Of a DNA stretch of 64,000 bases, positions 7,542 to 45,945 are shown in pieces. A program made the position numbers and the translations under genes. A model generated the notes under the pieces. The model saw only the letters and a list, made by a program, of their open reading frames with translations. It made no database searches and was not told where the DNA came from. Source of the stretch: Henckelia pumila (Eukaryota > Streptophyta > Magnoliopsida > Lamiales > Gesneriaceae); contig NC_133123.1 in assembly GCF_033568475.1 (NCBI RefSeq), positions 139,082,062 through 139,146,061 on the forward strand, given 5' to 3'. Positions within the stretch are counted from its first letter, which is position 1; the number at the start of each line of letters is the position of its first letter.

Positions 7542-9229
7542 TTTTATTTGATTTATTTTTATTTTCTTTGGGGTTCTTCATTATTATATGCACACAACAC
7601 TCATGGACGTAATAATTTTTTTTTTTCCATACACGTTGTAAGATTATACACAAGACACAAAATTATCAAAAGTCCCTTCGTTTATTTCATTCAGCAGCAT
7701 ATTTTTGTTATTTTTAATTTGTTTTTGGGTGGAAGTTATGTTTCTTTGTGATATACGCAATTCGACAAGCTTTAGGTACAGAGTATATTTAGAAAATTTT
7801 TTACTTTCTAAATACCATGTAGTAAATACTATGTAGTAATATATAGATACCAAGCAAACAGTATATTAATTGCAAACTATAATTTGATGATATTGTTGTG
7901 CACTTGTTGTATCTATGTCCGTGGATTTTTAATAAATCTATTATTATATGATTAAGGATGAGAGTATCATCTTAAAAATTTGTGGTTGGTTGATATGATT
8001 TTTGTATCAAATTATAATTTGGTCTCAAATATAATTTCACCATGTTCTTTTATCAGTTTTTAGAATTATGGAATTATCTTTAGTTTAATATGAATCAAAT
8101 TATTGATAAAAAAAATATTAAACTTCAAAAAAATTGAAAAAAAAGAAGTGATTTGAAGTTAGAGTTTCACAAAATGAGTATATTCTAACTTGCTATTTAT
8201 TTTACGATGGAGTTTATGATAGTACTGCATGGTAAACGATCCTAGATAGATTTTTATTGGATTTTTTTTAAACATATATTTCATTTTGTTTAAATTTTAA
8301 AAAATCTATAGCATTTGGGCGTTTTCTTTCTGCTTAACCTTTTGATTTTTATTTGCCAAATTGTTTTCTACAATCTCGTAAAACCTCATCTTTTTGAAAC
8401 TACTTGCGTTGTGAAGAAAACAGTGAATAAATGCTAGAAGCTGGTCCACACACACAAACACATATTTATGTAAATAATATACTTTCAATCTTGGATTAAA
8501 TTATAAAGACAAATTAATTTAGATTACGTAAAATACCAAGACAAAGTCGTTTGTGTGCATGCACCTTCGAGGTTTTACGTGTCAAAGTATATTTTGCTCT
8601 GTCACCCCACTTTCACTTGACTTAAATTAAATACCGTAATATAATATTCCGGCAGGGGATATAATTAATGTTTTGAATTTTAATTTATTGACAGAGCTAA
8701 AAAAATATAATAAAAATTACATCGTAATGATGATGTAAACTTTACGTCAAGATTAACACCACAATTTGACACATACATGATACATGCCGCATAATAAGAA
8801 AATTAAACATATCCGAGTTGGTACTAGTGTTAATATAAACACTTATCAAGGATTCTTTCTGCTAAATTTTTTTTTTCAGGTGAGTCTGTAACATAAGATT
8901 TATTTTATGTAGACGTAGTTTATCATATTAGTATATTGTTTAGATGCGTTAATACAAAAGTTTATCTAGTGTCATCGAATGAGGGAAGAATTGTGGTTTC
9001 ATTTCATTAGAAATTTTTTTTTTTGTACTAGCTAGCTAGAACATAAAATATATAGTCAAAATAGAACATTAGATCAAAGTAACTTGAGTTACGTTTTAAG
9101 TTGTGGAAAAATGTTAACACGACCAGAAGCGACAATTAAGATATATAGTTAAAAATCGTTTAAAAATTTTCATGCTTGGTTGATGACTTTTGTGAAGAAG
9201 GATATATTATTGGGTATATTATCGTTGTT
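7542..9229. other. Intergenic, 3' of the ERF gene
   Basis: AT-rich sequence; the first few hundred bases should hold the ERF 3' untranslated region. No other gene or clear element recognised. Confidence 0.5.
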
Positions 9230-9239
9230 TGGTGGAACG

Positions 9240-9445
9240 ATCGATTCATAGTGTTTGAGATTCATAGTGTTTAAGATTTTGTACGATTCAAAAAATTAGA
9301 GTTGGACCATTACCACCAACTATAACTTTTAGTAAAACGGCAACTGCTCGGTTCTACAATTGGTATCAGAATTAACCAATGTCATGTGTTTGATTGTCAT
9401 TGATTGTAAGGAGTGTAATTATTGGGAAAAAGATTGTTGGGTGCA
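9240..9445. mobile_element. TRIM-like LTR remnant
   Basis: A degraded stretch with the order expected at an LTR/primer-site junction: a segment like ...CACTATTACCGCC...TAAAATAGCAAGCGCTCGGTCC (compare 48960-49040), followed at 9360 by TGGTATCAGA, the core of an initiator-Met tRNA primer site. Related fragments occur at about 48860-49045 and inverted at 50575-50665. It is an old relic with no coding capacity. Confidence 0.45.
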
Positions 9446-11394
9446 ATATACAATTGTCTCTTCTCGATAGAACGGTCGAACCATAATTGAGACAAAAAAA
9501 ACGTGACTTATATAATTGAGACGGAACTAGTAATTTAATTAGTTTCAAATGACAATTACCGAAGCAAAATTATTTTTAAAATACTAATAACGTGCACGTA
9601 TCGTAAAATTAAACGTCCAAATTCATAAATGAAATTTGACCAAAAAAGTCTTTTTACATGTCATATTTAATCAACATGTTCATTAATTTTCATATTTCAA
9701 ATTTTAAAAATTCAACATTTTGAATTATTGACAAACACAATTACCCAAAAATAGTGATACAATTGGCATAATAACTGTTGATCGCGACATTTGTTTTTTC
9801 AAAAAGAAAAAAACCCTACTTGAAGTATAATCGGGTTATAAATGAGATCCTACACTATTAGCATTATCCAAATCATGTATTCATATTTCTCGACATGAGC
9901 ATAATTAATGGTATATTGTTCATATTTCTCCACATGAGCATAATTAATGATATATTATTAATGTGGCAAATCACAAAACATTAACTTTATGATTAATTAG
10001 AGTCATACCCTTAAGATAATTGAACTCTACCTTATAACCGATCCTCCAATTAAACCAAATTGAACTGACAAATTAATGATATTGTTCTGAAGTGTGATTT
10101 AAGAAATCAATGAATGGATATATTCATTTATATTGTGTTTGGAGGGAAGAATTTCAAATCCATAAAATTCAAATATAAATTTTTTATTTAGAGAAGTAAT
10201 ATCATAAAAAAAAACTTGAATCCACACTTTATATGATTATATTGTTATTTCATGTTAATTAAAATGAATTTCAAATTTACTTAATATCAGTATCATTTAA
10301 AATACATTTTACTTTATATTACTACTATATAAATAATTTATGAATAAAAAATTTAATTTATTATTTTATTGTTAACAATAAAATTATAATCAAAATTCTT
10401 GAATTTCAAATCCATATCCCTAAAGACAGTCTTAGAATATTGTTAACAAAGAATGAGGATAATGAAATAATTATAAGATAGGACATGGAACTCTCATCGT
10501 ATTATAATATTGTTAACAAAGAATGAGGATAATGAAATAATAATTATAAGATAGGACATGGAACTCTCATCGTACACTACTTGATTTGTTTGCTTGCTTG
10601 TTTTCTCGCATGGGAATATAAAAAATAAAAAAAGAAATTGTAGAAACTAACCATAATTATATAACTTATATTAGAACATTGAATTCGGCATGCTTTTGTA
10701 AAAATATTTTTGTTAATATCTAATTGTTCGTCTCTATTTCACATGATTGCCTTACATAAAAGTTATTAATCTCGACGACCACAATTATAATTTCATTTGT
10801 TTAAATAAAAGACTAACTATTCAAGTATTATTAATGATTTATTTATTTATCAAACAAGTAAAGTTTTTTTCCCCTTATAGAAAGATTATTGAAAATATGA
10901 TAAATCGAGTTCTTTTTGGAAAGAACCAAAATACTTGATACGCGCACATAGGGACAATTAACTTTGGACACGACACCAAAGTCTTTCACCACTTCAGGAT
11001 TTTCCGGTGCACGCACACACACACGACAAATTAAAGGACCATATAAGATCATGAATTAACCGACAATCAGAAAAAATATATATATATGAAAAGTATCAAA
11101 TTCAATAGTGAGCTAAATCTTGAACACCTTTTTCGCGAAATCCGATCAAATTACACTTTGCTATTGTATCACGAGTCAAGCTAGATATATATATGTTACT
11201 GTTATTGAACATATAAACCCCAAGACCCCAAATATATTAATATCCCATATAAATTAAACTTAGCTTGAGCATTTGGTTCAATTCAGAAACACACAATTCA
11301 CACAAATGAAAGGTCACAATCAAAATTTCAATTCTCCATAAAACGATCATGCAAGAAAATATTAAAAAAAATTAATTTATACAGTTGATGATCA
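9446..11394. other. AT-rich intergenic DNA with a local duplication
   Basis: No gene seen. About 9560-9900 resembles the two flanks of the CACTA element (15950-15990 plus 20463-20740), suggesting an older segmental duplication. About 10133-10433 has weak inverted ends reminiscent of a MITE. Confidence 0.4.
10433..10573. repeat. Tandem duplication, two ~70-bp copies
   Basis: The block ATATTGTTAACAAAGAATGA...GGAACTCTCATCGTA occurs twice head to tail with period 70 and almost no differences apart from a 3-base TAA insertion, so the duplication is recent. Confidence 0.85.
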
Positions 11395-11970: not shown

Positions 11971-12597
11971 TCTTTTTTTACTTTTTCTCGAGTGCTGGGG
12001 TGTTGGTTTTGTTGGGACTGTATATACCACCATGTGGGAATATATGTACATATATAAATGCCAAGAAATCAAGTGGTATTATGTGTAACAAATAAGATTA
12101 AATGGGATTATCTATTTTGGAAAACATTTATTGATTGTAATAATTTTGAAACGATTTAATAAAAATTCATGAATTCAGATATTGGAGTGTCACAAAAGAG
12201 ATTTTTTCTTCTTAAATATATATAAGCTATTGTCATCTGATCTCAAACAAAAAACGTAAGAATGACAATGCTACGGTTTTAGCTAGCTAGTAAGACTCGT
12301 CTCGAACCATGTAATTAAATCTAACCTTATACTTGCTTTGACCTATGTCCTAAAGTTAATGGGTTGTAGTAAAATCCACTAGATCCGTTATATAATTAAT
12401 TATAGTCGTAATATTTTATAAATCTCATAAATATTAATATGATATTTAAAAATATAAGAACCATAAAATCTCATATAAAAAAATCTCCATAGGTGGCGAA
12501 GCGGTATGTTTGGAATGAAAGAAATATATTTTCGGAACTAACACAAACTTGGTCCCATATAATATATGGTTGGACTCTAGCTATAACTTGAAGTCTA
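11971..12597. other. Promoter of cluster gene 1 and intergenic spacer
   Basis: Contains the minus-strand TATATA at 12021-12026 serving the gene to the left. The rest is AT-rich spacer and the likely 3' untranslated region of the next gene. No other coding sequence seen. Confidence 0.5.
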
Positions 12598-13173
12598 TTA
12601 ATTATTGATGAGATTAGAAACGGTCTGGTACGCAACTTGTTCAAACAAATGCATAACCTGATCCCCTTTGGAAATCACACCATCTACAACTTTTTTGGAA
12701 CTCATAGCATTTCGACACCGATCTAATTGATTTGTTTCCCCACTTTTAAGACACCAAGCCGCCGAGAAGTAGTCTTCTTCTTGAATAGTCTCCAAAGCAT
12801 TTGCGAGCCAGTACGTAGCATATAATCCGTAGCCAGCGTCACACTCTCGCAATGCGAAAATATAATCTGGTGATTTCCTCCCGGGCTGATTGAGCAACTT
12901 TCTCACGTAAAACTGTGTTTTCGTTGCTCTCGAAACCGACGCTTCGATTATAGCAATCGACATTTTCAGATAATCAGTAGCTGCTACGACACGAGGTTCA
13001 GTTTGGAGAACCTCGACGCACAAGTTGTAGTCGATGGGCATTAGTCTCCCAACACACACCTCTTTAATAAGGGGAGTTGCACGAGATATGCTAGCAACTT
13101 TGGGCACCGAGGGGGAAAGAACAAGTGCCAATGCAACAAAAGTCATGCATATTGAAGCAACCAAACAAGCCAT
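12598..13173 (-). CDS. PMEI/invertase-inhibitor domain protein (cluster gene 2)
   Basis: Single exon, 191 aa. The ATG at 13173 opens a signal peptide (MACLVASICMTFVALALVLS). Conserved cysteines lie in IKEVC, YNLCVEVL, LRECDAGYG and LDRCRNAM, the PMEI/invertase-inhibitor signature. There is a fifth Cys in AAWCLKSG that the neighbours lack, which could pair or stay free. The TATA element is at 13221-13227 (TATATAA on the minus strand), 48 bases before the ATG. A roughly 1-kb block holding this gene and its upstream DNA is duplicated at about 20880-21940, where the copy is dead. Expected to act outside the plasma membrane as an enzyme inhibitor; the actual partner is unknown. Confidence 0.88.
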   Translation of the reverse strand: MACLVASICMTFVALALVLSPSVPKVASISRATPLIKEVCVGRLMPIDYNLCVEVLQTEPRVVAATDYLKMSIAIIEASVSRATKTQFYVRKLLNQPGRKSPDYIFALRECDAGYGLYATYWLANALETIQEEDYFSAAWCLKSGETNQLDRCRNAMSSKKVVDGVISKGDQVMHLFEQVAYQTVSNLINN

Positions 13174-13227
13174 TTTTTTTTTTGGGGGTATTGATTTTGA
13201 TTGGACTCTACAACATGGGATTATATA

Positions 13228-14168
13228 GCAAAAGAAATATTAAAAAAAATATAGTAAACATTATGGGATTATGTATACGGGTAAAAAAAAAATATACAGT
13301 GAGACTTGCTATTAATTTTTGGGACGATCATTAAAATATTGTTGCATTTGGTACGTAATTTATTATAATTTTTAAAGGATTTAAGGAATCCATGATTAAT
13401 GTAGAATGAAGACTTTGAATTAAATAGATATAATTAGATTGGATTGGATATATGACATCTCACTTGGTTTGACCCTTTTTTTCTTCATATTCAACCTAAA
13501 ATAGGCAAAATGTAGATTACCATCCCTATAATTAAATAGATATAATGTTGATTGTTGAATTCTGCATGCTTTCAAAAATCTCATATATAAATTTTTTTGA
13601 AGAAGTTTTTAAAATATTTTTGATGATGATATTATCTAATATTGGTAATTTATTTCAAATTATTACCACACGTAAAAATTATTAATGATTCTCCATGACG
13701 GCAATAGTTTCATTAAATTATTTTAAAAAAATTTCTGTGCAAGACGGGTTTGCAAATGTCATTGTTGTTTTAAGGTGAACTTTTCCTACTAATAGTCATA
13801 AGAAGAAGTTATGAGTAATGTTAATAAATCATTTTTGTAATGATTTATTTAGAAAATTCTAAAAAAGTTACATTCAAAATATGTATGTTTAAGTTACAAA
13901 AAGTTATAGCCGTTTATCCATCTCTATCTCTTGTAAAATATTGATTCGTTAATTGAAAAATCAACTCATAAAATAATGTTGTAGTTTTTAGTCTTCATGA
14001 GAAGGAAAAATAGTTTAACTTTTTTAAATTTCAACGTTTACATGTATGGTATGTGTTGTTGGTGTATTTTTTATTTATTATTTTGGATTAAAAGTTGATT
14101 TCATTTGAATTGATATATTTGAACGCAATATGTAATTTAACACACACACACATATATATATATATATA
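13228..14168. other. AT-rich intergenic DNA
   Basis: The first ~300 bases match the upstream region of the dead paralogue at 21600-21940. The rest is AT-rich and holds nothing recognisable; a (CA)n/(TA)n tract runs up to 14168. Confidence 0.5.
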
Positions 14169-15987: not shown

Positions 15988-16247
15988 ATTCACTACAACA
16001 AATATGGCTTTTCGCAGCGCGATATCAACGGCGCATAATAAAAATATGTCGTTGATGTTATTATTAACAGTGCGTGCATTTATGTGTGCTGTTAATATAT
16101 TGATATCTTATAAAAATAACAGCATGCAATAGTTGGATGATGTAAATTATAGTTTCAACGGCGAGCAATTAAATGCACGCTGTGCAAAATTTTAACAACG
16201 GCGTTCAATCTGCGCGCCTTGAATATTGTGAAATAAAAATATTATTT

Positions 16248-16574
16248 TCAAGGGCGCGTAAAGTAAAACACGCCGTTAAAAAAACACACCGCCAAAAGTC
16301 CCCAAATCTCTTTCCCTTCTCTCCGCTCTCTCCTCTTTTCCCTCTGATAGAAACCCTCGGAAGAAATACGTCCTTCTCTTGCGGCTCTTCTTTTCGTCAT
16401 CGCTGGAGTCTGAATCCTCGGCATGAAGTAGAAGAAATAATGCGAATGGTCGAGCTTTACGGCGATGAGATCCTTGGTTAAGGGCCACTGGATGTCATCG
16501 GAGACGGAGGTGAGAGATGCAACAGTGTTGCTCCCCTGAAAGGAGGCGGAGGATCCGAAAATCACCAGTGGCAA
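16248..16574 (-). other. Unidentified open stretch inside the CACTA element
   Basis: The minus strand stays open over about 100 codons in one frame and about 70 in another, the latter with an acidic/basic run (AEDSDSSDDEKKSRKRR). On the plus strand the same DNA begins with a CT-rich leader-like stretch (16300-16345). It could be a third captured host fragment (a first exon with its leader), but I do not recognise the source. Confidence 0.3.
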
Positions 16575-17380
16575 GCTCGACGGAGTAGTGTCTGTCGATC
16601 AAGTGAAGAATGGCACCAGGGATCGTGACAAGGGATTCCTCGATCGATTCCATACAAAATTGCAAAAAAGAAAAAAATTGCTCGGTCGTGCGAAGCCAAT
16701 GAATCTGAGATTTCTTCCAAAACCAACACTTTTGCGTAGCAATAGAATTTCTACAGTGAAGCTAATCTAACTCTGTAGCGTCTTTCCTATTTCCACCATT
16801 TCATCTGTTCTCACATGAAAAACAAGGTATTTTCTGTACCGTTTTTTTTTTCAATTACATGTTTTTATATGAGAAAACAGCTATATTATTTTTTGCTCTT
16901 GGAATTGTCCATTTTCCATTTGTCAAGGTTCTTTTGTAATTGAGAATACTTCTTCCGTTTGGAAAGCTTCAATTTTTTTTTAAATATTGGAGTTTATTAT
17001 GCTTTTCAGCAGTCTGTGGAGAACAAAATGTTGCTGATTTAGGTTCTTTTAATTTTGCGACCCAGTTCCAATATTGACATTATACACACCTGCCATGGAG
17101 CATAATTCATTGCTGAAGTCCTAAGTTTCCTCGTATTGTTTTGCAGCTTTTTCTTGTGTGGTTTCATTATTAGAAATTACTATGGTTCTAATTTGATTCT
17201 AGAAACAATTTGCTCGAGGGTAGTGTTTTAATTTGTTGGAGAAGAATCTTCCTGTAAGATGACTTTATCACAATAGACATGTTTGCATATGTTGTATAAT
17301 GTTGCATTTTTTGGCGTTATGCTGGTACGTTTTGTACTTCCTTGACCTGTCAGGTATTTTTTTTTTCTGATGATGCGTTT

Positions 17381-17526
17381 TGGAAATGGTTGAACTTCGA
17401 GAAATTGATACAACACGCGCTATATTAAGGCAAACCCAAGTGATGGGTTTCGTGACACAGGAGCAGTCGGAACGATACCTACGGCTTGAGCATCTGTTAG
17501 TTCGGACTTATTTTGATCCCAATGAG
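17381..17526 (+). pseudogene. SMU1: Captured exon fragment of SMU1 (WD40 splicing factor)
   Basis: Translation gives LEMVELREIDTTRAILRQ, then QVMGFVTQEQSERYLRLEH and LLVRTYFDPNE, matching the N-terminal region of plant SMU1 (LEMIELRELDTARAILRQ...YFDPHE), the WD40 protein of pre-mRNA splicing. The exon ends at a retained GT donor (GAG|GTAAGA at 17527), so the fragment came from genomic DNA with introns. The following bases look like intron, and no WD40 repeats are present. Residue changes and the lack of the rest of the gene show it is a fragment, not a working gene. Confidence 0.85.
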
Positions 17527-19022
17527 GTAAGAGCTGAATCTTATTTACTGCCTCTGTTAGTGCTATTTATTTTGTACAGCCTCATGATTATGGGCTTTCA
17601 GAAATAGTTGGTTCGCAGTTCCTTGGCTGATTAATGATTTTGTTGACCATCTAATGCCTAGAGATAGCAGATTTATAGTCTCCCGTTTTTGCGGTTTTTG
17701 GAGAAGATCATAAAATTCTGATTGCTCGAGATACGATTTTTATTGTTCTTATTTCTAAAGTTGTTAACTAGTAAATAAAATAAGTTAGGGAGAATTATTA
17801 TTTTTTGTTTACTGGATAGTGGTCGTTCTTAGAAAGCAAAAAAAATAATAGCAAAGATTCTTGAATTATGCCCTTGTCTTGTAAAGATTTATTCATGGTC
17901 TGAACTAATAAAATGTTGGTATAGTGTGATAAAGTTCCGTTCTGAAGACATACTATTTACTTTTAGGAATTTTCCGAAAAATTTCTAGAGACTTTTAAGT
18001 TTCTTTTTAGGAATTAATAAGGATAAATAAGCAAATTACTAATGCAATGTTTGTTTACATTTTCAAAAAATATGTTCAATTGTTGAAAACAAATCATACG
18101 TATCTTTGATTAATAAGATAGGTTTTTTACGGTGTCCAGATTTTATTATAATTATAAGTTACTTAGATTAAGTAGTATGCCACAAAATATGTTCACCCTT
18201 CATTATTGTAATTTGCACACTTCCCCCTTTTCCATTGGTTTTTGGTTCTTGATGGGTGTTTTATGTTGTAATTGTGAAATTATCAATTTTATATCTGCTG
18301 CTTCTACTTGTGGGAGTTGAAACTGATATTGGCATCATTCAGGTTGGAAAAAATACCAGTTTTGGTTACTTGTGCAGTAGGAGAATCTTATATATTTTAT
18401 GACAAGCATTAGAAGATATACTTCTCTGAGTTAGATAATATATTTCCAGATTGTTTCTTTATCAAAGTCTCTTGATTTAAAAATTTATTGTGGAATAAGA
18501 TTGACTAAGTTTGAAGCCTTAGAACATAGTATCTCAGAACATTGTTTCTTTGTCACCTGATTCACATTTCTTACTTTCTGGCGGTAATCTTTAATACAGT
18601 AGCTTTTTCACAGGTCGATCCAGGCCTATCTTTGAGCATTGATAAAGATTTGCTTATTCATTCAAGTAGCATGGTGCTGGTTGTCTGATATTTAAATTAA
18701 GGGTTGATACCAAAATTACGTGTTCTTGATGCTTTTAGTTTTCTAGAAATTAAATCTCCCGATAGGATTACTCTGTTTATTTTCCGAATTCAGTTATTCG
18801 TTCATTTGAAAACTGTTAGGATGTTGAATTTCTTTGACATCTTAAGCAGGCCTTTCTCCCCTCCCACTTTTTTTCCTCTTAAAAATTAACAAGTCTACAG
18901 TAGATGGAAAGTTGTGACTACGTGACTTAATTGTGCTTTGCTAATTGGTAATGGTCAAACAAATTTTTCCACTTTGTTGGTTCTGCTGATTGGTACTGTT
19001 ACATATTTAATTTCCTTCTCAG

Positions 19023-19325
19023 AAATGGTTGAGAGCATGAAAAAGTTGCAAAAATAAATGTTGAATCATCGGTCGATGAGAGAAACATACTTTCCGTTGG
19101 ATACAAGAATGTAATCGGTGAACACAGAGCTTCATGGCGCATCATGTCGTCGATTGAGCAGAAGGAAGAGGCCAAAGGAAACGAAAACAATGTTAAACTG
19201 ATTAAAGATTACCACTAGAAGGTGGAGGATGAGCTATCCAAAATCTGCTTTGATATTCTTAGTCATTGACAATTGCATCTAATTCCCTCTTCTGGTTCAG
19301 CAGAAGCTACTGTATTCCCTCTTCT
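19023..19325 (+). pseudogene. GRF: Captured exon fragment of an epsilon-type 14-3-3 gene
   Basis: Preceded by an intact intron end (TTCCTTCTCAG, AG at 19021-19022), the sequence encodes in pieces [66 protein letters not shown] and LIPSSGSAEATVF. These are helices 2-4 of a plant 14-3-3 protein. One base is missing near 19045, a stop follows the KDY segment, and another frame change occurs at the ILS..IDN segment, so it is dead. Like the SMU1 piece it retains splice-site sequence, so capture was from genomic DNA. Confidence 0.88.
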
Positions 19326-20125
19326 AATTCATATGGGTCGGTACACACTATTTTTCACATTTCTTACTTTGTTCTATTTTAATTTCAGAATATAAGTTAC
19401 CTCTGCATTTTGATTCGTGTCACACAACCTAAAATATTCAAACGAATGAAGACCAGGGATATATTAGTCATGTTTTACATTTAAGACTGATAGATTTTAT
19501 TGAGCTAGCTTGACTTCGATTCGAAACTTGAAAAATAATGTATTTTTAACTCATGCTTGCGTTGAATTAGAATTCAAATTTGCTCAAGGTCACAAGGAAA
19601 ATTACAATTTTGATTATTTGCAGAAGTTCACAAGAAAAAATGGGCAACCTAATTTTTTTATTTTATTTAGATATTATCTTTTTTTATTTGCAGAAATAAA
19701 TAGAAGAATGTCCACCTGAATCTCAAAACACAACATTGTAAATGATGCAATTAGCCCTGTATTTGGCAAAGAAGCTCGAGTAGAGTGCGCGCAATGGGCG
19801 TTGGCGTTCATCATCGAAAGTTGGAGCTTCTGTGTGATTGATATAGATTCTACTGCTTTGAGTGTATTAAAACGCTTTGAGTGTATTAAAACTCTAATCA
19901 TTGTTATGTGTATCTAGTTTGTGTTTATAGTTAAAATTTGTGCTTAATTGAAAAGATATGATTTTTCTATTTTCATGAATGAAATTGGAATATTTTGTTT
20001 AGTTTTTCATTTTCATTAGTATATTTTGTTGGTTGAAGTTTTATGTTACATTTGAATCATATATGACTATAAACGGTGGTGTCAATTTTTTTTTGTGATG
20101 CAAATCTCTACTTTTAATAGTGTTT

Positions 20126-20372
20126 TCGCAGCGTGCTTTGCACGCTATCGATGTGAGTTTTCGCGGCGTGCATTGCGCGCTGCCGATATGAATTTTCGCG
20201 GCATCTTTTGCGTGCTGTTGATGTGCGTTTTCGCGGCTTGCTTTTGTGCGCTGTCCATGTGAGTTTCCGCGGCATGCATTGTGCACTGCCGATGTGAGTG
20301 TTCGCGGCGTGCTCTGTGCGCGGTCGATGTGAATTACCGCGGCGTGCATTGTGAGCTGTCGATAGCCCATGA
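20126..20372. repeat. 35-bp GC-rich subterminal tandem repeat of the CACTA element
   Basis: Seven copies of a ~35-base unit (TTTTCGCGGCGTGCATTGCG, then CGCTGCCGATGTGAG) run from about 20126 to 20372. Similar words (CAACGGCG, GTGCGTGC, CGCGCC) lie inverted near the left end. In CACTA elements subterminal repeats bind the transposase; that role is inferred. Confidence 0.75.
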
Positions 20373-20462
20373 TTTTCAACAGCTTTTAATTATGCAGCGT
20401 TCGATGCACGCTGCGGATAGCGGATTTGCGCGCCGCTAAAAATCATTTTTGTTGTAGTGATT

Positions 20463-20944
20463 CGTCAAACGTCACAAGCTAAGTCATGTGTATATATACA
20501 TGAAATAATCTACAACCTAATAAAACCCTTAAAATTTGACCAACAACAATACTCATCATTTTCATGTTTCAAAAACAGAAAAAAAATAAATAAATAAAAT
20601 CTCAACATTTTTAGAATATAATTATCGACTCACACAATCACCCGGCCCATACGTGTCGACTCATATAGGAGCTGCTATTTTTTTACAGAACATACGTACA
20701 TAGTAGCTATTGATTGCGATATTTTGATTTAAAATAAATGAATGTGAAGTAAATAAAACCATGCAGATGGATTAAATTAAAATTAAGAGAGGACTAGAAG
20801 TAAAATCTTTCGGGGTCCTTCGATGCTAGTGGCATAGGGTCGAATTACCCAATCTTTGGATATATATGGAAATTTATAAATATATTTTCAGAACTAACAC
20901 AAACACTGTCCCATATATATAATAACTTAATTAAAGTCTATCAA
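20463..20944. other. Intergenic spacer right of the CACTA element
   Basis: No gene. 20530-20740 resembles 9600-9900. The last ~60 bases match the 3' flank of PMEI cluster gene 2. Confidence 0.45.
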
Positions 20945-21531
20945 TTAATTATTGGTGAGATTAGAAGCGATCTGGTACGCAACTTGTTTAAACAAATGAA
21001 TAGCCTGATCCCCTTTGGAAATCACACCATCTTCAACTTTCTTCGAAATCAGAGCATTTCGACACCGATCTAAGTCCTCATTATGTTCAAAATACGCAGC
21101 CGCCGAGAAGTAGTCTTCATCTTTAAGACACTCCAAAACACCTGGAAGCGTGTACTTACGATATGTTGCGTATCCAGCGTCACACTCTCGCACTGCGTAA
21201 ATATATATAATCATCTGGTAATTTCCTCCCGGGGTGATTGAGCAACTTTTGCACGTACAAATGTGTTTTCGTTGCTCTCGAAATCGACGCGTCGATTACA
21301 GCACTCGCCATGCTCGCATAACCAGAAGTTGCTAGCTACGACACGAGGTTCAGATTGGAGGACCTCGACGCACTAGTTGTAGTCGATGGGCACTATTCTG
21401 CCAACACACACCTCTTTAATAAGAGGAGTTGCACGAGAGATATTATTGCTACCAACTTTGGGCACCGAGGGGGAAAGAACAAGTGCCAATGCAACAAAAG
21501 TCATGCATATTGAAGCAACCAAACAAGCCAT
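20945..21531 (-). pseudogene. Dead PMEI/invertase-inhibitor copy (cluster copy 3)
   Basis: Close duplicate of cluster gene 2, including the signal peptide (MACLVASICMTFVALALVLS) from the ATG at 21531. Compared with gene 2 it has a TTG-to-TAG stop right after PIDYN, a one-base insertion shortly after RVV, and a second frame change just before the RECDAGY segment. The last 80 codons (RECDAGYATY... to the stop at 20945) are open and keep the third and fourth cysteines. Upstream DNA (to about 21940) and downstream DNA also match the gene 2 region, so a block of about 1 kb was duplicated. A short in-frame ATG at 21214 exists but would give no signal peptide. Confidence 0.88.
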
Positions 21532-21540
21532 TTAATTTTT

Positions 21541-22583
21541 ATTTTTTTTTGTGGGGGGTATTGATTTGGGATTGAACTCTACATGCAATATGGGATTATA
21601 TAGCAAAATAAATTAAAAAATAAAATAAAATCGTATATAATATGGGATTATGTATACGGGTAAAAAAATGTACGGTGAGACTGATGACTGTTAATTTTTT
21701 GGGACGATATATCACTAAAATATTGTTGCATTTGGTACTTAATTAATTTATTATAATTTTGATATGATTTAAGGAATCCTTGATTGATGCAGAATGAAGA
21801 CTTTGATTGAATTAAATAGATATTATAATTAGATTGGATTGGAAAACGAATTTATATGACAACTCATAACTTGGTTTGACTTTGACCTTTTTGTCTTCAT
21901 ATACGACATAAAATAGGCAAAATGTAGATTACCATATTCCCTAATTAAACTGTTGAATCCTGCATGTTTTCATAAAGCATATAGTTTCACTAATTTGTTG
22001 AATACATGCACCAATTCAGATTTGATGTTCTTTTAACAACAATATAATGGTCATGTTTTAGAATATGAAATCCTTTACTCCAATTTGGCAATTAATATTC
22101 CTATTACAAAAAAAATATACATATGATATATAACTGACCTTTATAATTTGCATTTTTTGGCAAGTAATTTCTATACATATGTGAAATTGTCGTTATACTA
22201 TATTTAGGCTAATTTTGTCCATCTACCATATGAATGTTTAATTTTTGTCTAAAATGGCTGATTACGCAGTGAAAGAGACGACGTGGCAAAAAAAATTACG
22301 ATTTCTTGATTTATAACGGAAATCAATTACTTGATAGCAACATAACATTAAAAAAAAAAATTGAAACAAATTTTACAAGTTTTATGCATATTTAATTTGC
22401 TTAACAGAAACATTGCACTAGACTATTTTATTCCAAGTTTTCGATGGGATTCATTTAAAATACGCCATTAAAATATGATAATATTTAGAAAATAATTAAG
22501 GAAATTTGTGATTTTGTGGGATTCTTACGTTAGGCACGCGGTAATTGACTTTATTACGCAATATTGTAGTAATGATGGAATAT
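21541..22583. other. Duplicated upstream block, then AT-rich spacer
   Basis: 21541-21940 is the copy of the cluster gene 2 upstream region (shared GGGATTATATAGCAAAA, GGGATTATGTATACGGG, GAATGAAGACTTTGA). 21940-22583 is AT-rich with nothing recognised. Confidence 0.55.
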
Positions 22584-22593
22584 TATGAAATAT

Positions 22594-23473
22594 GGGTTTT
22601 TTTTTATTTTTAATGTAAAAAAAAGTTTTAATTTCAAAAATAACGTGAAATGGATACAATAACAAAAATAATGTAAAACGCCATTGAAAATGGCGGACAC
22701 TCGATTATTTAATCGAGCGTCCGCCACAGTGTGTGGCGGACAATGCCATGTAGGCAGCGTCCTCCACACCGTGTTGCGGACGCTGCCTACATGGCATTAT
22801 TTATATATTTATACATATATATATATATATATATTTATTTGTATATGATATATTTATATGCACGATATATATATTTGTATGGTTATATATATATATATAT
22901 ACGATATATATATATCTATAAATATATTTATATTTTTATACATTTTATATTTATATAGAATATTAAAAAAAACAAGATATATATATATATTTATTTAACG
23001 AGCAAAATATATTTTGGTATACGAACTATTGGTAAAATATCATATTGGTACACGAAATATTGAAAATGGCTTAATTGGTACATGTTCCAAATAAAAGGTC
23101 AATTTTATTCATAATATAAATTAATATTATATTGGTTAATTTTAAAATATCATATTTAGTCCTACATGCATATTATTTATTGATTTTGTGGTTTTATTAA
23201 TATATAATTTATATCAATTTTTTTAAATGGATAATTATTTACATTGATAGAAAAAATATCACTTCGTTATATATTATTTATATTTTAAATATATAAATAA
23301 TTTATTAATGAGTATTTTTTTATTAATAAATTATTTAAATTTTAAAATATAAATTATTTATTAATGAGTGTTTTTTTATTAATAAATTATTTATATTTTT
23401 AAAATATAATAATTTATTAATGAGTATTCTTAGTCTTACATGCATATGATTTATTTATTGAGTTTGTGGTTTA

Positions 23474-23516
<43 letters not shown>

Positions 23517-24111
23517 CTTTTTAATAAATATGATATTTTAAAATTAATCAATATAATATTAATTCATATTAAGGGTAAAATTGACCTTTTATTTGGACCA
23601 TGTACCAATTAAGTCAGTTTCAATAGTTTGTGTACCAATATGACATTTTACCAATATTTCGTGTACTAAAATATATTTTTCTCTTTAAATAAATAAATAA
23701 ATGTATATATATATCTTGTTTTTTTAATCTTCTATATAAATATAAGATATATAAATATATTTATAGATATATATCATATATATATATACACGATATACAA
23801 ATATATATCGTATATATAAATATATTATATACAAATATATATATATATACCTTTATATATAGACGATATACTATATAAATATATATATGTATATAAATAT
23901 ATAAATAATGCCATGTAGGCAGCGTCCGCCACAAGATGTAGAGGACGCTGCCCACATGGCACCGTCTGCCACTATGTGTGGCGGATGCTCGATTAAAAAA
24001 ATCAAGCGTTTGCCATTTACATTGACGTTTTACATTATTTTTGTTATTACTCCAATTTCACATTATTTTTGAAATTAAAACTTTTGTTTACATTAAAAAT
24101 AAAAAAAACCC
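22594..24111. mobile_element. Palindromic Mutator-like element with long inverted repeats (1518 bp)
   Basis: Starts GGGTTTTTTTTTATTTTTAA and ends with its complement. It is flanked by a perfect 10-bp direct repeat TATGAAATAT (22584-22593 and 24112-24121), within the 9-11 bp range of Mutator-like elements. The arms contain GTGTGGCGGAC...ATGCCATGTAGGCAGCGTC blocks at 22720-22795 and, inverted, at 23905-23990, then AT repeats. An inner inverted pair (ACGAGCAAAATATATTTTGG, TTGGTACACGAAATATTG and complements, 22998-23690) may be a second element nested in the first. No coding capacity. Transcribed, it would fold into one very long hairpin. Confidence 0.8.
23477..23514. repeat. (TA)n microsatellite near the centre of the palindrome
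   Basis: About 18 uninterrupted TA units. Confidence 0.9.
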
Positions 24112-24121
24112 TATGAAATAT

Positions 24122-31097: not shown

Positions 31098-33029
31098 TCA
31101 GGGATTATCTGTAATGTCGATCAGGAGCTTAGAATAATTCTTAGAAATCTGATTCTTCACACCAACCTCATTATTTCGTTTCTTTGGCACGGCCCTAACG
31201 CAACGATTTATGTCTTGTACGATCACTTCGCCATCTAATCCTGCAATGGTCGATTCTTGGCTGGCATCTGCTAACACAAGTTTGATGTATTCTGCTATTT
31301 CTTGATAAGCTATCACACATTCTCTCATGGATGGTTTAAGAGCTGGATCCATATTCTTGTCTTTATACAGTGTTATGAGGTATTTTAAGGTTTTGATGAC
31401 ATGGCGCGTTGTTGCCTCTGTAGCTACTTGTAACAGGGGAGTGTAGTCATCTGCGGTTGCATTGGCAGCTTTAGGGTTCTTGAGCACCTTGAGACAGAAG
31501 ATCCGATTCACGCTGAGTCTTTTGTAGAGACAGAAATTGTTAACTGTTTGGTATGGAACCGTGGGGTTTGTAGTTGGTTTGGAGGGTGTTGGCTCAGGGG
31601 GTGATTTTGAGCCTTGTTCTGGATTGGGGGTTGGTTTTATGGTTGGTTCTGGTTCCGCGCTTGGTCCTTCGGTTGAATTTGGATCATTGTCTGATTCAGT
31701 AGGTGCAGAACTTGGTTCGGGGGCTGGTTTTGGTTTAGAGCTAGGTGCAGGGGATGTTTTTGGTTTAGAACTTGGTGCAGGACTATCTTCTGCTTCTGTA
31801 GGTGGTTCTGTTTCGGAACTTGGTGATTGTGACATGGAGGGTTTTGGTTTAGAGCTAGGTGCAGGGGTTGGTTTTGGTTTAGAACTTGGTGCAGGACTAT
31901 CTTCTGGTTCTGTAGGCGGTTCTGTTTCGGAACTTGGTGATTGTGACATGGATGGTTTTGGTTTAGAGCTAGGTGCAGGGGATGGTTTTGGTTTAGAACT
32001 CGGTGCAGGACTATCTTCTGGTTCTGTAGGTGGTTCTGTTTCGGAACTTGGTGATTGTGACATGGATGGTTTTGGTTTAGAGCTAGGTGCAGGGGATGGT
32101 TTTGGTTTAGAACTTGGTGCAGGACCATCATTTTGTTCTGTAGGCGGTTCTGTTTCGGAACTTGGTGATTGTGACATGGATGGTTTTGGTTTAGAGCTAG
32201 GTGCAGGGGATGGTTTTGGTTTAGAGCTTGGTGCAGGACCATCATTTGGTTCTGTAGGTGGTTCTGTTTCAGAGTCTGGTTCAGAGTTTGGTGATGGTGA
32301 CATGGATGGTTTTGGTTTAGAGCTAGGTGCAACGGATGGTTTTGGTTTAGAGCTTGGTGCAGGACCATCATCTGGTTCTGTATCAGGGCTTGGTGATGGT
32401 GACATCGATGGTTTTGGTTCAGAGCTTGGTGCAGGACCATCATCTGGTTCTGTGGGTGGTTCTGTTTCAGGTTCAGAGCTTGTTGATGGTGACTTGGATG
32501 ATTTGGGTTTAGAACTAGGTGTAGGGGTGGGTTTGGGTTTAAAGCTAGGTGCAGGACCATCGCATGGTTCCGTGGGCGTTTTTGTTTGCTCAGAGCTTGG
32601 TGCGGGACCATCACATGGTTCTGTGGTCGGTTCTGTTTCACATTCTAGTTCACAACTCGGTGACGGTGAAGTGGATGGTTTTGGTTTAGAGTTGGGTGCA
32701 TGGGATGGTTTTGGTTTAGAACTTGGTTCTGTGGGCGGTTCTACTTCAGAGCTTAGTGATGGTGGCATGAATGTTTTTGGATGATTGGTTGACTGTGGAG
32801 CCAAAGCTGGCCTAGAGCTTGGTGCCATGGACCATTTTGAGTCCAAGGGCAGAATTGTGTCATAGTCGTCTGATTCCGATTCAAATCCCGGTTCTGAATC
32901 AATGTCATTCTCTATAGATGATTTTGGAAGCGTGGGTGGTTTCAATGTAGGGATGGATTGTGAAAGGGAGAAGGCGGAGAAAGAAAGAACAACTACAAGG
33001 CAAATTAACACCTTTCGTGAAGAAACCAT
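31098..33029 (-). CDS. Secreted chimera: Pro/Ser/Lys-rich repeat region plus C-terminal PMEI domain
   Basis: Single exon, 643 aa from the ATG at 33029; the frame is open a little further upstream but without an ATG. Residues 1-24 are a signal peptide (MVSSRKVLICLVVVLSFSAF). Then about 470 residues of low complexity follow, dominated by PAPSSKPKPS, SETEPPTEP and similar blocks. The core is a 38-residue (114-bp) unit repeated nearly identically four to five times (31831-32300), with more diverged units around it. Ala-Pro and Ser-Pro pairs are sites for hydroxylation and arabinogalactan-type glycosylation in plants. The last ~150 residues form a PMEI/invertase-inhibitor domain with four cysteines (NNFC, RIFC, RECVIAY, INRC). 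Likely a cell-wall glycoprotein tethering an inhibitor-like domain; whether that domain still inhibits an enzyme is unknown. A TATATAA lies about 70 bases upstream of the ATG. Confidence 0.85.
   Translation of the reverse strand: MVSSRKVLICLVVVLSFSAFSLSQSIPTLKPPTLPKSSIENDIDSEPGFESESDDYDTILPLDSKWSMAPSSRPALAPQSTNHPKTFMPPSLSSEVEPPTEPSSKPKPSHAPNSKPKPSTSPSPSCELECETEPTTEPCDGPAPSSEQTKTPTEPCDGPAPSFKPKPTPTPSSKPKSSKSPSTSSEPETEPPTEPDDGPAPSSEPKPSMSPSPSPDTEPDDGPAPSSKPKPSVAPSSKPKPSMSPSPNSEPDSETEPPTEPNDGPAPSSKPKPSPAPSSKPKPSMSQSPSSETEPPTEQNDGPAPSSKPKPSPAPSSKPKPSMSQSPSSETEPPTEPEDSPAPSSKPKPSPAPSSKPKPSMSQSPSSETEPPTEPEDSPAPSSKPKPTPAPSSKPKPSMSQSPSSETEPPTEAEDSPAPSSKPKTSPAPSSKPKPAPEPSSAPTESDNDPNSTEGPSAEPEPTIKPTPNPEQGSKSPPEPTPSKPTTNPTVPYQTVNNFCLYKRLSVNRIFCLKVLKNPKAANATADDYTPLLQVATEATTRHVIKTLKYLITLYKDKNMDPALKPSMRECVIAYQEIAEYIKLVLADASQESTIAGLDGEVIVQDINRCVRAVPKKRNNEVGVKNQISKNYSKLLIDITDNP
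31827..32300. repeat. 114-bp in-frame coding minisatellite
   Basis: The word GACATGGATGGTTTTGG recurs at 31831, 31945, 32059, 32173 and (with a longer unit) 32299; spacing is exactly 114 bases between the first four. Near-identity between units points to recent unequal exchange, so copy number probably varies between individuals. Confidence 0.9.
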
Positions 33030-34974
33030 TTTAGTTTTCTTGCAAGAATATGGTGGTAGCTTAGCCAATTCGATACGATTTGAGATGAAATAGATCGTTA
33101 TATATGTACAGTGACACTATTGTAATTCAATTAATGCGGGTGTTACCCTTACATAGTATAGTAAATTAATCTTTATTACATTCATTAAATAATCTGTCTT
33201 CAATTAAGTAGAGGAATTTATTACAACTCGTGCCATGGCATAAACTATCAAGTGTTGGACCCGTTGGAACTTGGAATTGCACTTTGGGCTCACTTGTTTC
33301 GGGCTCTTTATGCGGACTTTTCTTAAATTGAATTGTATAAAGAAAAGTAGATAATAAATATGGAGAAGTATTTCAAACATTTTGAAAAATAAATGAGAAC
33401 AATGTTCTAAATTCTTAGGGGGTGAGAGGTTATGCGATTTTTCTTTTTAGTCTACGTACTTAATTCTTCTTGTTCATTGCAATATTTTTTCAATAATTTT
33501 TTTATAAATTCAAACTCAAAATTCATATCATATCTTTATATATTTTTTCCAATGCAAATTGATTGACAAATACTCTTTTTAAAAATTAAAATTTAATAAC
33601 ATAAAAAAATATTTAATCTAGGCGATCGCTTAGACGAATTTTCAGTCGTCTAAGTGGCTACTATTCGCCAATTAATGTAAAATCACTCAGAGACTTTCAC
33701 TGTTTAAAAATTGAAACAGTGACCAACCCTCTAACGCCGAAGTGATATAGACATCCCTTAGCCATTTCATAAGGGATTAATAATAATAGAAGGTTTTCAA
33801 ACAATCACATGATTTAATTTAATAAGATTAATATATGCAATTATCCCTAGTTAATATCATACATTACTCGTTTTAAATCTAATATCTCAAAAACTAATAT
33901 TTTTAATCAATCAAAAAATATCTTAAGAACATATATATGTTTTAAAATATTGAGCACACAAACTTTTGTTCCTACCTATTAATATTAAATGTATATATAT
34001 ATATGTGTGTTCAAAATTTTAAAATACAATGTTAAAAAAAAATTTAAATACAGAAGTGTAAAATTATGAACGAATTTTCATTATTAGAGCAGCCCCAAGG
34101 GCCAAACTTGATCACTCGTTTTTTTCCTCGCCCCCTCCAAGGGCCGAGGAAACCGGGGGCTCCGCGCGGTCAAGCCCTCCCATTTTTTTTTTAATTTTTT
34201 TTATGCGAGGCCCACCACTATTGTTTGTCTTCTTTTTTTTAATTTTTTTTTTCACGCGGGTCCCACCATTATTTTTTAAAAATAAATGAAATAAATTGTA
34301 AAAAAAATCAAAAAATTTAAGAATAATTAATAAAAATATTTAAAAAGGTCAACGACTATATTTTTTTAAATTTATTTTTGTCAAGTTTAATTCATGTGTA
34401 TTTTTTTCATGTTTGTTTTTTTATTTTGGAATATTATGTATGTTTTTAAAATTATTTTTTATGTTTTAAAAAATATTTTTTATTTTTTATATTTATGTGC
34501 ATTTTTAATGTAATTTTAAATTTAATTAAGTTAATTTTTGATTTGTTATAAATTTGTGTATTTTATTATATTTTAAAAACATTATTTAATATATTAAAAA
34601 ATTAATATTTCAACATCATCACATCATTGTAGAAACACACAATGAAGTTATCAACGCTAACATCATCATGCGATCAATTTATCAACTTGACCACACCAAC
34701 TTCCACACGTCCTTATGTCCTTATGCATGCTCTTCATCTCGAAATTGTTTCCTAGGAAGCTTCCACAAACGGCTCAAAGCGTTGACCGTGTGCCTGAGTC
34801 TACACTCCATAGCCATTAGCAGAATCTTCCAGTCAATTTTCATGCCCCGTTAATGGAGGCGGCTCTTTATTTTCCTCTCGTGTTTCCTCTCTCCCTTTTC
34901 CTCTTATTTTTATTTTTTACAAATACAAACTCTTCGATCCATAGCTTTCCCATATCCTGCGCGTGTGGAGGAAT
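33030..34974. other. Divergent promoter region and AT-rich spacer
   Basis: Separates the minus-strand PMEI chimera from the plus-strand kinase. It contains a TATATAA box for the former at about 33099-33106. At 34090-34180 there is a C/G-rich patch (CAGCCCCAAGGGCC...) resembling one end of a MITE, with no partner end found. The rest is AT-rich. Confidence 0.45.
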
Positions 34975-38680: not shown

Positions 38681-40767
38681 TAACCTATCTAAAAGATATC
38701 TAAAAGAGTGAATAAAAGGATAAAGTTTTACGATTGTGAATTTACAACTTTGCCTTTTATTCACTCTTTTACATATTCCAAAAAAATATGTACAAGGGTA
38801 TAACAGTAAATATGTACACACACTTCATCTATAATACAGGAATATAAAAGTAAATATATGTTGGTCATTAATTAATTATTAATATAATAATATATAGTTA
38901 TTATTATTTCTGTTGGCTACATTAAGACAAATAAATACATGAAATTAAATATATATATGGGCACCGTTTCAGAAATCCCATTCAAAGAGAAGACAAAGAG
39001 AAGCATTGACCGTTTCAGAAAGTTTTCCAAATAGATCGAAATTAAATACATGATATATGGGTCACCGCGGCGTCTCAGAACACCCACTCAATCCACTCCA
39101 ACGTTCCAAAAAAAAAAAAAAACACTGAAAGGAAAAGAAACGAAGGATACAATAGAAGAAACAAAGGAAAAGAGAAGCGATTGTGGTTGCACCCCAGTGG
39201 CTTGTCAATTCTATAACCTATCTAAAAAAGTAAATAAAAGGATAAAATTTTACGATTGTGAATTTACAACTTTGCCCTTTATTCACTCTTTTACATACTC
39301 CAAAAAAATATGTACAAGGGTATAACAGTAAATATGTACACACACTTCATCTATAATACAGAGATATAAAAGTAAATATATGTTGGTCATTAATTAATTA
39401 TTAATATAATAATATATAGTTATTATTATTTCTGTTGGCTACATTAAGACAAATAAATACATGAAATTAAATATACATATGGGCACCGTTTCAGAAATCC
39501 CACTCAAAGAGAAGACAAAGAGAAGCATTGACCGTTTCAGAAAGTTTGCCAAATAGATAGAAATTAAATACATGATATATGGGCCACCGCGGCGTCTCAA
39601 AACACCCACTCAATCCACTCCGACGTTCCAAAAAAAAACCACTGAAAGGAGAAGAAACGAAGAAGACAATAGAAGAAACAAAGGAAAAGAGAAGCGATTG
39701 TGGTTGCACCCCTGTGGCTTGTCAATTCTATAACCTATCTAAAAAAGTGAATAAAAGGGTAAAGTTTTACGATTGTGAATTTACAACTTTGCCCTTTATT
39801 CACTCTTTTACATACTCAAAAAAAATATGTACAAAGGTATAACAGTAAATATGTACACACACTTCATCTATAATACAGGGATATAAAAGTAAATATATGT
39901 TGGTCATTAATTAATTATTAATATAATAATATATAGTTATTATTATTTCTGTTGGCTACATTAAGACAAATAAATACATGAAATTAAATATACATATGAG
40001 CACCGTTTCAGAAATCCCACTCAAAGAGAAGACAAAGAGAAGCATTGACCGTTTCAGAAATTTTTCCAAATAGATCGAAATTAAATACATGATATATGGG
40101 CCACCGCGGCGTCTCAGAACACCCACTCAATCCACTTCAACGTTCCAAAAAAAAAAAAACCACTGAAAGGAGAAGAAACGAAGGAGACAATAGAAGAAAC
40201 AAAGGAAAAGAGAAGCGATTGTGGTTGCACCCCTGTGGCTTGTCAATTCTATAACCTATCTAAAAGAGTGAATAAAAGGGTAAAGTTTTACGATTGTGAA
40301 TTTACAACTTTGCCCTTTATTCACTCTTTTACATACTCCAAAAAAATATGTACAAGGGTATAACAGTAAATATGTACACACACTTCATCTATAATACAGG
40401 GATATAAAAGTAAATATATGTTGGTCATTAATTAATTATTAATATAATAATATATAGTTATTATTATTTATGTTGGCTACATTAAGACAAATAAATACAT
40501 GAAATTAAATATACATATGAGCACCGTTTCAGAAATCCCACTCAAAGAGAAGACAAAGAGAAGTATTGACCGTTTCAGAAAGTTTGCTAAATAGATCGAA
40601 ATTAAATACATGATATATGGGCCACCGCGGCGTCTCAGAACACCCATTCAATCCACTCCAACGTTTCAAAAAAAAAAAAACCACTGAAAGGAGAAGAAAC
40701 GAAGGAGACAATGGAAGAAACAAAGGAAAAGAGAAGCAATTGTGGTTGCACTCCTGTGGCTTGTCAA
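38681..40767. repeat. Tandem array of four ~520-bp units
   Basis: The marker CGATTGTGAATTTACAACTT occurs at 38731, 39253, 39770 and 40291, giving spacings of 522, 517 and 521. Units run from ATAACCTATCTAAAA to GTGGCTTGTCAATTCT and differ by only a few bases and by A-run length. Each holds a direct duplicate TTTCAGAAA...GACCGTTTCAGAAA, a CCACCGCGGCGTCTCA block and an A-run. The short open frames inside (MGHRGVS...) shift between copies and are not convincing genes. Confidence 0.9.
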
Positions 40768-41489
40768 TGGGTCGAAAACCATCAACTTTTTTCTCCAAAA
40801 GGTTTGCCTATGGTTTATTATTCCAAAACACATGCCCATATGCTCTTGGGATTCAATACATTGTTTACGTTATTGGTGTATATGTTGTAAATCTCGATTT
40901 AGCATTTAATTAAAAACAATTGACTACGATTTATTCTTGCTTCGTCGTTATTTCTATAACCTATGTGTTTTGATTTGTATTTGTTAACATTTCTTTGGGT
41001 TGTAAACTAAGACATGGCTCAGTCACCTTCAAGCCGATGCATATTTCTCTAAAAGTTCTTCGACCATGGATACCTAAATTGTGTAAAGAATTTCAACAAG
41101 TACTATTTGTAAAATGAAATTTGATGTAACAAGTTCTTGGTGTAACCCTCGAAGAATTCATACAATGAAAGTGCTCCAATAAAGGGTTTAATGGTACACG
41201 GGGTGTGCGAAACTCCAAGGGATAGACATATTATCTCATGAAAGGGGAAAGGACAAACAGACAGAATGAGAAAGATCTCGTGATAGATCACGACAGACCA
41301 AGGCATTGTGACCTAACTGGCCTCCCTAAAGGAGCTCCGACAATTGAAGACGGGGGCCCCTCTGACAACCCCAGTATTTTGAATTAATTTTTGTAATTGG
41401 GCCGTAGAAGCCCCTCTTCTTGTACTCCTTTATTCGCAATGAAATTCGTCTGTTCTCTTTATCCATTGTTTAATGCTTTACTTATAAAA
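40768..41489. other. Spacer between the tandem array and the Gypsy fossil
   Basis: No gene. From about 41340 the composition becomes more GC-rich and may already belong to the 3' untranslated part of the Gypsy element, whose left end I could not fix. Confidence 0.4.
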
Positions 41490-45600: not shown

Positions 45601-45917
45601 TTTTGTATCACAGGCCGGGATCCAGGGGTGATATTAAGTTTATGCTCCGCAACATGAGATGAAACTCCTATCAAATCGCCCTGAGCCCAGGTGAATACGT
45701 CCTTGTTCCGGATGAGACAGCTTTTCAGTGACTCGGACAAATTTGTTTCCATGTTCCGGGCAATCCTGACAAACTTCCCAGACTGCCCGAGTACCAGCTC
45801 CACCTCTTCATATTCGCCTTTAGATTCCTCCACAGAATAGACTTCTCTTCCCCCCCTGGCCTCCCTCCTTCCCGATCTGCCTGGCCCTTTTGTAATCGAC
45901 TCTAACTGTCTCGGCAT
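42650..45917 (-). mobile_element. Gypsy pol region: reverse transcriptase, RNase H, integrase
   Basis: Parts of the fossil at 41493-48453. Reverse transcriptase lies in about 44500-45917 (YVDDILVKS catalytic box, KWRMCVDFRDLNKAYPKD), RNase H in about 43730-44440 (IFVDGASG...SNNEAEYEA), the integrase zinc-binding part near 43520-43700 (CEGCQRFG), and the integrase core in 42650-43432 (LVSDNGRQF, YPQSNGQTE). Degenerate; no function is expected from this copy. Confidence 0.85.
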
Positions 45918-45945
45918 AACATTTTCGGGACGAAGGTTGATCCCC

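Follow-up and report, generated by a model that had tools for sequence, protein, structure and literature searches.

In a 64,000-nucleotide (nt) stretch of the Henckelia pumila genome (the window; C4:139082062-139146061 of the 885-Mb genome, as placed by a whole-genome match), positions 15991-20459 are a non-autonomous CACTA transposon of the Pack-CACTA kind. The element carries pieces of at least five host genes, one of them reversed, and is present in at least four full-length copies. It is highly likely that repair synthesis, switching between templates, built up the cargo, as the joins between the pieces suggest, and that the resulting composite was then mobilized in trans. Elements of this kind are already known, from soybean (Tgm-Express1) and Chenopodium; the value of the present one lies in its readable joins. 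Five candidate donors, four copies, and joins with templated filler, all within one genome, bear on models of gene capture.

Element structure and copies

The element has the hallmarks of CACTA transposons: terminal inverted repeats starting with CACTA, a 3-bp target site duplication, and subterminal repeats (Table 1). Its outermost 31 nt are 84% complementary between the two ends. With at most one mismatch, the motif CACTACAACAAA has two matches in the window, both of which are the ends of the element (0.53 expected). Target site duplications of 3 bp are described for CACTA elements (PMC4423477 and PMC8978399). The features of Pack-CACTA elements are likewise present: the element has no transposase domain of its own, contains genomic host-gene fragments, and was mobilized together with them. 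A six-frame Pfam scan of the element (E up to 1) returned 14-3-3 as the only domain and no transposase. A putative transposase-like remnant near 19720-19810 gave no Pfam match when read through and is not claimed.

A whole-genome search with the element, in which scoring covered 40 of the 278 first-look candidates, recovered three further full-length copies; the copy count is thus a lower bound. We refer to the window element as c1 and to the others as c2, c3, and c4. All four copies have a 3-bp duplication, each its own. Their first 15 bases are identical, as are the last 15 in three of them, with c4 differing by one base. The joins are also the same in c1 to c4 wherever they were compared (both edges of the ERD7 piece, the inner join of the SMU1 piece, and both edges of the 14-3-3 piece). 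Since identical joins are combined with separate duplications, the composite must have arisen once and moved afterwards, as one unit. The predicted CACTA element with inverted ends and an ATT duplication is therefore borne out, and its two ends do not come from different elements.

Across the ERD7, SMU1, and 14-3-3 pieces, c1 differs from the donors by 5.1-8.7% substitutions, and from c4 by 5.5%. This indicates that capture took place shortly before the spread. Plant DNA accumulates about 0.65-1.3e-8 substitutions per site and year, which would make capture and spread, roughly, a few million years old. Only one substitution is private to c1. In contrast, c2 has 49 (1 C>T and 3 G>A) plus 58 private inserted columns; these differences look like residual read errors or unpolished assembly rather than mutation, and were left out of the dating. 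Because c2 combines so many private inserted columns with no C>T excess, c1 and c2 may in fact hardly differ, and the latest transposition may be recent, although this hinges on assembly quality.

Cargo and its genomic donors

The SMU1 piece consists of two joined segments of its donor gene. A stretch of 524 bases that separates these segments in the donor, and that includes exon 2, intron 2, and the exon 3 acceptor, is missing. Positions 17377-17676, comprising exon 3 and the start of intron 3, are 92% identical to C4:219726341-219726639, and a structure search with 17374-17607 finds SMU1, with E values down to 2e-12. The donor gene, at C4:219.73 Mb, encodes LisH (2.7e-12) and WD40 (1.9e-6) domains according to Pfam.

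Homology of the 14-3-3 piece to its donor spans 18612-19317. The acceptor TTCTCAG| is kept at 19022/19023 and the donor site is lost. The piece itself matches PF00244 (E 1.9e-24), and its donor locus (L012) carries further 14-3-3 exons. The best-matching structures are of 14-3-3 epsilon; plant 14-3-3 structures, which we take to be of the non-epsilon group, follow closely, and the best plant one aligns with two extra residues. The captured gene is thus likely, though not proven, to be epsilon-type, as had been proposed.

The reversed piece comes from an ERD7-like gene. This identity was tentative until a Senescence domain (PF06911) turned up in the donor, downstream of the matched part, in three frames (best E 1.2e-12). 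The piece itself gave no Pfam match, which fits a senescence domain lying later in the protein (residues 258-426 in PMC8079945). A structure search with the piece led nowhere. Relative to the donor, there is a 13-nt deletion in c1, c3, c4, and the truncated relative L017, and c1 has further frame breaks.

Two parts of the cargo match neighboring segments of a locus on C2 with an open reading frame that contains the PNRC motif (PF15365, E 2.4e-7) downstream of the matched parts. The first part, which lies upstream of the reading frame, is probably 5′ untranslated region or intron. The SMU1 piece sits between these two parts, where it replaces about 130 bases. The true PNRC donor is uncertain, because C4:108777134-108778782 also matches part of the piece at 80-86%. 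The fifth source is a gene for a papain-family cysteine protease with a granulin domain, the exons of which were identified by Pfam in the donor; the two captured blocks match C2:2559414-2559861 at 88% over 126 nt and 70% over 180 nt. Positions 18101-18266 were considered as a capture from near a ZF-HD gene (L044) and rejected, the matches being short and too weak (74-76%).

The donors are far apart, at C4:36 Mb, C4:219 Mb, C77:12 Mb, C2:2.6 Mb, and C2:146 Mb. For SMU1, 14-3-3, and the protease, the donor matches extend across introns. Genomic DNA was therefore the source of the captured sequence, and it is ruled out that the SMU1 and 14-3-3 pieces arose as retrocopies. The original prediction had assigned the cargo to two host genes, SMU1 and 14-3-3, copied from genomic DNA and both in plus direction. 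All of this holds for those two, which have same-genome donors at 92-93%, but it does not cover the remaining sources or the reversed piece. Its exon fragments (17381-17526 with the donor site GAG|GTAAGA kept, and 19023-19325 with the acceptor kept) are real and correct to within about 10 nt, with SMU1 homology running from 17377 and 14-3-3 homology ending at 19317; the accompanying intron sequence had been overlooked.

Joins and templated filler

Between the protease and 14-3-3 pieces lies filler that is itself composed of copies (Table 1). A 17-nt segment is identical to the element's own DNA, a match that none of 5000 simulated fillers reached, and the adjoining segment matches the 14-3-3 exon with a score of 21, which none of 3000 simulated fillers reached. 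For comparison, the highest values among 84 overlapping control pieces taken from 17677-18560 are 12 nt and a score of 11. The filler is telling because the two matches adjoin and one of them is to a donor exon. A reading of the inverted 14-3-3 snippet as part of another 14-3-3 gene, one that brought its own donor site, was dropped, because comparison with the donor identifies it as a reversed piece of the same exon.

Two joins have short overlaps, both read by eye. The ERD7 and PNRC alignments share 4 nt, ATTC, at 16647-16650, and there is a GTT overlap at the inner join of the SMU1 piece. At the right edge of the 14-3-3 piece, an 18-nt stretch that repeats exon sequence at 89% (Table 1) may be a further trace of the joining.

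Table 1. Features of the window element (c1) and positions of the other full-length copies.
Feature	Position	Strand	Remarks
Left 3-bp target site duplication, ATT	15988..15990		AGG, TTA, TTG at other copies
Left terminal inverted repeat, CACTACAACAAA	15991..16002	+	Longer imperfect repeat to ~16021
Family-own 5′ subterminal region	15991..16283	+	75-84% to left ends of seven loci (L028-L034)
CT-rich stretch	16284..16370		Common to copies and truncated relative L017
Senescence-domain (ERD7-like) coding piece, reversed	16371..16650	-	88.5% to C4:36219490-36219784
PNRC-motif gene, part 1	16647..16898	+	71% to C2:146231062-146231343
SMU1 intron 1, part	16886..17382	+	80% with gaps, 5.4% substitutions, to C4:219727164-219727615
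SMU1 exon 3 without first 3 nt	17377..17526	+	Acceptor lost, donor site kept
SMU1 intron 3, start	17527..17676	+	From donor alignment
PNRC-motif locus, part 2	17691..17772	+	83% to C2:146231474-146231556
Dispersed repeat	17743..17963		71-80% to L040 and L041 (two compared); two more loci listed
Cysteine protease with granulin domain, intron piece	18228..18510	+	Blocks 18228-18351 and 18356-18510
Filler, 17 nt identical to 19354-19370	18561..18577	+	Between protease and 14-3-3 pieces
Filler, inverted 28-nt copy of 14-3-3 exon 2	18573..18600	-	92.9% to donor L012 4461-4435
14-3-3 intron 1, part, acceptor included	18612..19022	+	93% (exon included) to C77:12006845-12007554
14-3-3 exon 2, cut ~11 nt before end	19023..19317	+	One-base deletion, TAG in donor frame
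18-nt near-copy (89%) of 14-3-3 exon 19282-19299	19314..19331	+	Right 14-3-3 join; repeat family D9
Family-own 3′ internal region	19330..20121	+	82-84% to L015 up to 20083
Subterminal array, ~seven 35-bp units	20122..20363	+
Right terminal inverted repeat, reverse complement of CACTACAACAAA	20448..20459	-
Right 3-bp target site duplication, ATT	20460..20462
Copy c2	C3:49775550-49780071 (L002)		98% to c1
Copy c3	C3:111133994-111138444		96% to c1
Copy c4	C1:140304330-140308752		91% to c1

Coding and RNA potential

Judged from the sequence, a protein function of the cargo is unlikely, because a TAG in the donor frame of the 14-3-3 piece is shared by all four copies (c1 and c2 also have the one-base deletion) and the hybrid SMU1/14-3-3 frame of c1 stops after five added codons. 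The same hybrid stop is found in c3, while in c2 and c4 the frame stops inside the SMU1 part, which in c2 may reflect assembly errors. In view of these stops in the hybrid frame, we reject a functional chimeric protein as unlikely.

It was also proposed that the element works at the RNA level, either through transcripts in which the SMU1 exon is spliced to the 14-3-3 exon or through small RNAs acting on the parent genes. We consider such a role unlikely, although splicing from SMU1 to 14-3-3 would be possible on paper. The SMU1 donor and the 14-3-3 acceptor are retained in all four copies, where they frame one hybrid intron (1496 nt in c1), and each copy shares exact 21-mers with the exons of the donors (36-77 for ERD7, 3-35 for SMU1, and 44-72 for 14-3-3). 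Chimeric transcripts of this type are produced by soybean Tgm-Express1 (PMC1947982). On the other hand, the hybrid frame stops early, and the element has lost both the acceptor of SMU1 and the donor site of 14-3-3.

Assembly of the cargo

We propose that a CACTA ancestor with these ends would have lost its inner genes. A break inside the element could then have been repaired by a polymerase that copied stretches of the ERD7-like, PNRC-motif, SMU1, cysteine protease, and 14-3-3 loci, changing template again and again and so producing the short overlaps and the templated filler of the joins. The composite, its ends intact, would subsequently have been mobilized by a transposase in trans to give at least four dispersed copies, in which the gene pieces are presumably decaying passengers. 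Comparable processes have been reported: filler after excision through synthesis-dependent repair (PMC4423477), gap filling with microhomology in animal Pack-TIR elements (PMC8277862), and a suggestion, cited in PMC3260210, of replication errors during the repair of excision breaks.

The cargo might instead have been gained by fusion of neighboring CACTA insertions, the external ends of which mobilize the DNA between them (Catoni et al. 2019, as given in PMC8903248). Such fusion is described for Pack-CACTA and other Pack-TYPE elements in PMC8903248 and PMC13317346, and close neighbors do occur here, the truncated relative L017 lying ~7 kb from c4 in the same orientation. However, a separate event would be needed at each of five distant loci. 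Fusion also predicts internal ends, and none were found between the pieces: the element contains no further end motif at one mismatch or less, no unit of the 35-bp 3′ array type elsewhere among the 30 best scores (a search limited to the right-end repeat type), and the 8-9 kb around each of the three main donors contain no CACTACAA[CG]A end. Nor does fusion alone account for the inverted 14-3-3 snippet beside filler from the element's own DNA, or for SMU1 inside the PNRC piece. We therefore regard fusion as improbable; it is the templated filler between cargo pieces that favors template-switching repair. Chance resemblance, or two separate elements, can be dismissed: the end motif alone is not decisive, because 12 of 100 shuffles contain two or more matches, but four full-length copies with their own duplications, the 14-3-3 match, and a 93% donor match continuing through an intron refute both.

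Several points weigh against repair with template switching followed by mobilization in trans. In a looser control than the simulated fillers, the middle of the element was shuffled 100 times and a 17-nt direct repeat arose somewhere in one of the shuffles; within the element the two filler matches have BLAST E values of 0.005 and 0.017. The short overlaps at the joins may be due to chance. The PNRC (71-83%) and protease (70-88%) pieces are more diverged than the other three, which suggests that capture was perhaps stepwise, or that the loci found are not the true donors. No source could be assigned to positions 16284-16370 or to parts of 17964-18560. Furthermore, the copying event was not itself observed. 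The transposase acting in trans is likewise deduced: one relative, L027, has no more than a PF03004 match below the cut-off, with no genome-wide search aimed at transposases of the TNP2 type.

A stronger version of template-switching repair would have the cargo built largely in one episode, by serial switching, backwards included, among at least five distant loci and the element itself, much as complex rearrangements arise by template switching, and with a product that was still competent for transposition. We offer this only tentatively and consider it rather unlikely.

Relatives and known systems

The left end is shared with seven other loci (L028-L034). Pfam scans covered six frames of L028, L030, and L032, chosen for matching both end regions and not randomly, and three frames of L015 and L027; L016, L018-L020, L022-L026, L029, L031, L033, and L034 were left out. 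Host-gene domains were found in all three loci scanned in six frames, two of them near or below the curated cut-offs. L028 (C4:64383050-64393040) contains a complete relative at C4:64388383-64393008 with the duplication CGA; its cargo includes MutS domain V (2e-28) and a DYW deaminase (2e-15), making it a second Pack-CACTA of the family with other cargo. L030 (C3:177737500-177743490) has both ends but no matching duplication; two of its frames match MutS domain V, with scores under the curated cut-off. L032 (C77:8016020-8022010), in which the right end was not found, has an SPT5 KOW domain at 26.9 bits, against a cut-off of 27 bits.

The three-frame scans of L015 and L027 returned no host-gene domain inside the CACTA part. 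In L027, for which the left end was not found, the PF03004 match has an E value of 1.5e-4 and 22.4 bits, against a cut-off of 28.7, and leucine-rich repeat matches lie beyond the right end. A viral movement-protein domain (PF01107, 3e-24) at ~1070-1400 of L015 is upstream of, and outside, the CACTA relative. L017 (C1:140294500-140303299) is a truncated c4-like element that ends inside the ERD7 piece and has two insertions and the 13-nt ERD7 deletion in common with c4. It is joined to a repeated sequence; the insert that separates the L015/L016 relative into two parts matches this sequence as well. Finally, L023 (C1:149427850-149437840) contains, at 7704-9953, a 2250-base relative with the duplication GAT and the ends CACTACAAGAAA and TTTGTTGTAGTG.

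The way in which DNA transposons take up host genes is described as "not known" in PMC3260210, and as "perplexing" for Pack-MULEs in PMC8277862. Among the closest known systems is Tgm-Express1, a 5.7-kb soybean CACTA element of the wp allele that carries exonic and intronic parts of five unrelated host genes (PMC1947982). It resembles the present element in superfamily, similar size, five host-gene pieces, and retained splice sites. It differs in the genes captured, and the present element has four copies, filler, and same-genome donors, with no insertion shown inside a gene.

The Pack-CACTA and Pack-TYPE elements of Arabidopsis, maize, and rice in PMC8903248 are also non-autonomous and low in copy number; they have CACTA ends and contain host coding DNA that derives from several loci. 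That set is given 5-nt duplications, in contrast to 3 nt here, and tandem-insertion fusion is proposed for it, whereas the joins in the present element point to template-switching repair. Chenopodium CACTA elements (PMC8978399) share the 3-bp duplication, subterminal repeats, and captured host-gene pieces, but in the elements described there these pieces lie upstream of transposase domains, which the present element lacks. The maize Ds-l4 elements (PMC3260210) similarly enclose intron-containing gene pieces and further filler DNA within their terminal repeats, but are described there as belonging to the hAT superfamily, with 8-bp duplications. A literature search found no paper that joins a CACTA transposon with a 14-3-3 gene fragment, and neither matches among viral contigs nor peptide strings in paper texts turned up in searches for them. 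For annotation, gene models at these loci that resemble SMU1, 14-3-3, or ERD7 should be read as transposon passengers.

Genomic setting

Pfam matches in the window (AP2, PMEI, protein kinase, peroxidase, and reverse transcriptase) identify it as plant DNA. Two tandem copies, 12505-13601 and 20861-22002, are 80% alike. A PMEI gene is present in the first, whereas the second has a short reading frame without a Pfam match; c1 ends ~0.4 kb from this second block. Positions 22592-24114 are a 1.5-kb AT-rich stretch with a 79% match to its own reverse complement. A 672-codon reading frame at 31101-33116 contains tandem repeats of 114 bp and, near its end, matches PMEI weakly (E 6e-4, below the cut-off). 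Four head-to-tail copies of ~520 bp with 95-96% identity occupy 38688-40768, and a 70-bp tandem array at 41496-42600 lies near a retrotransposon, the reverse transcriptase of which is at 44502-45956.

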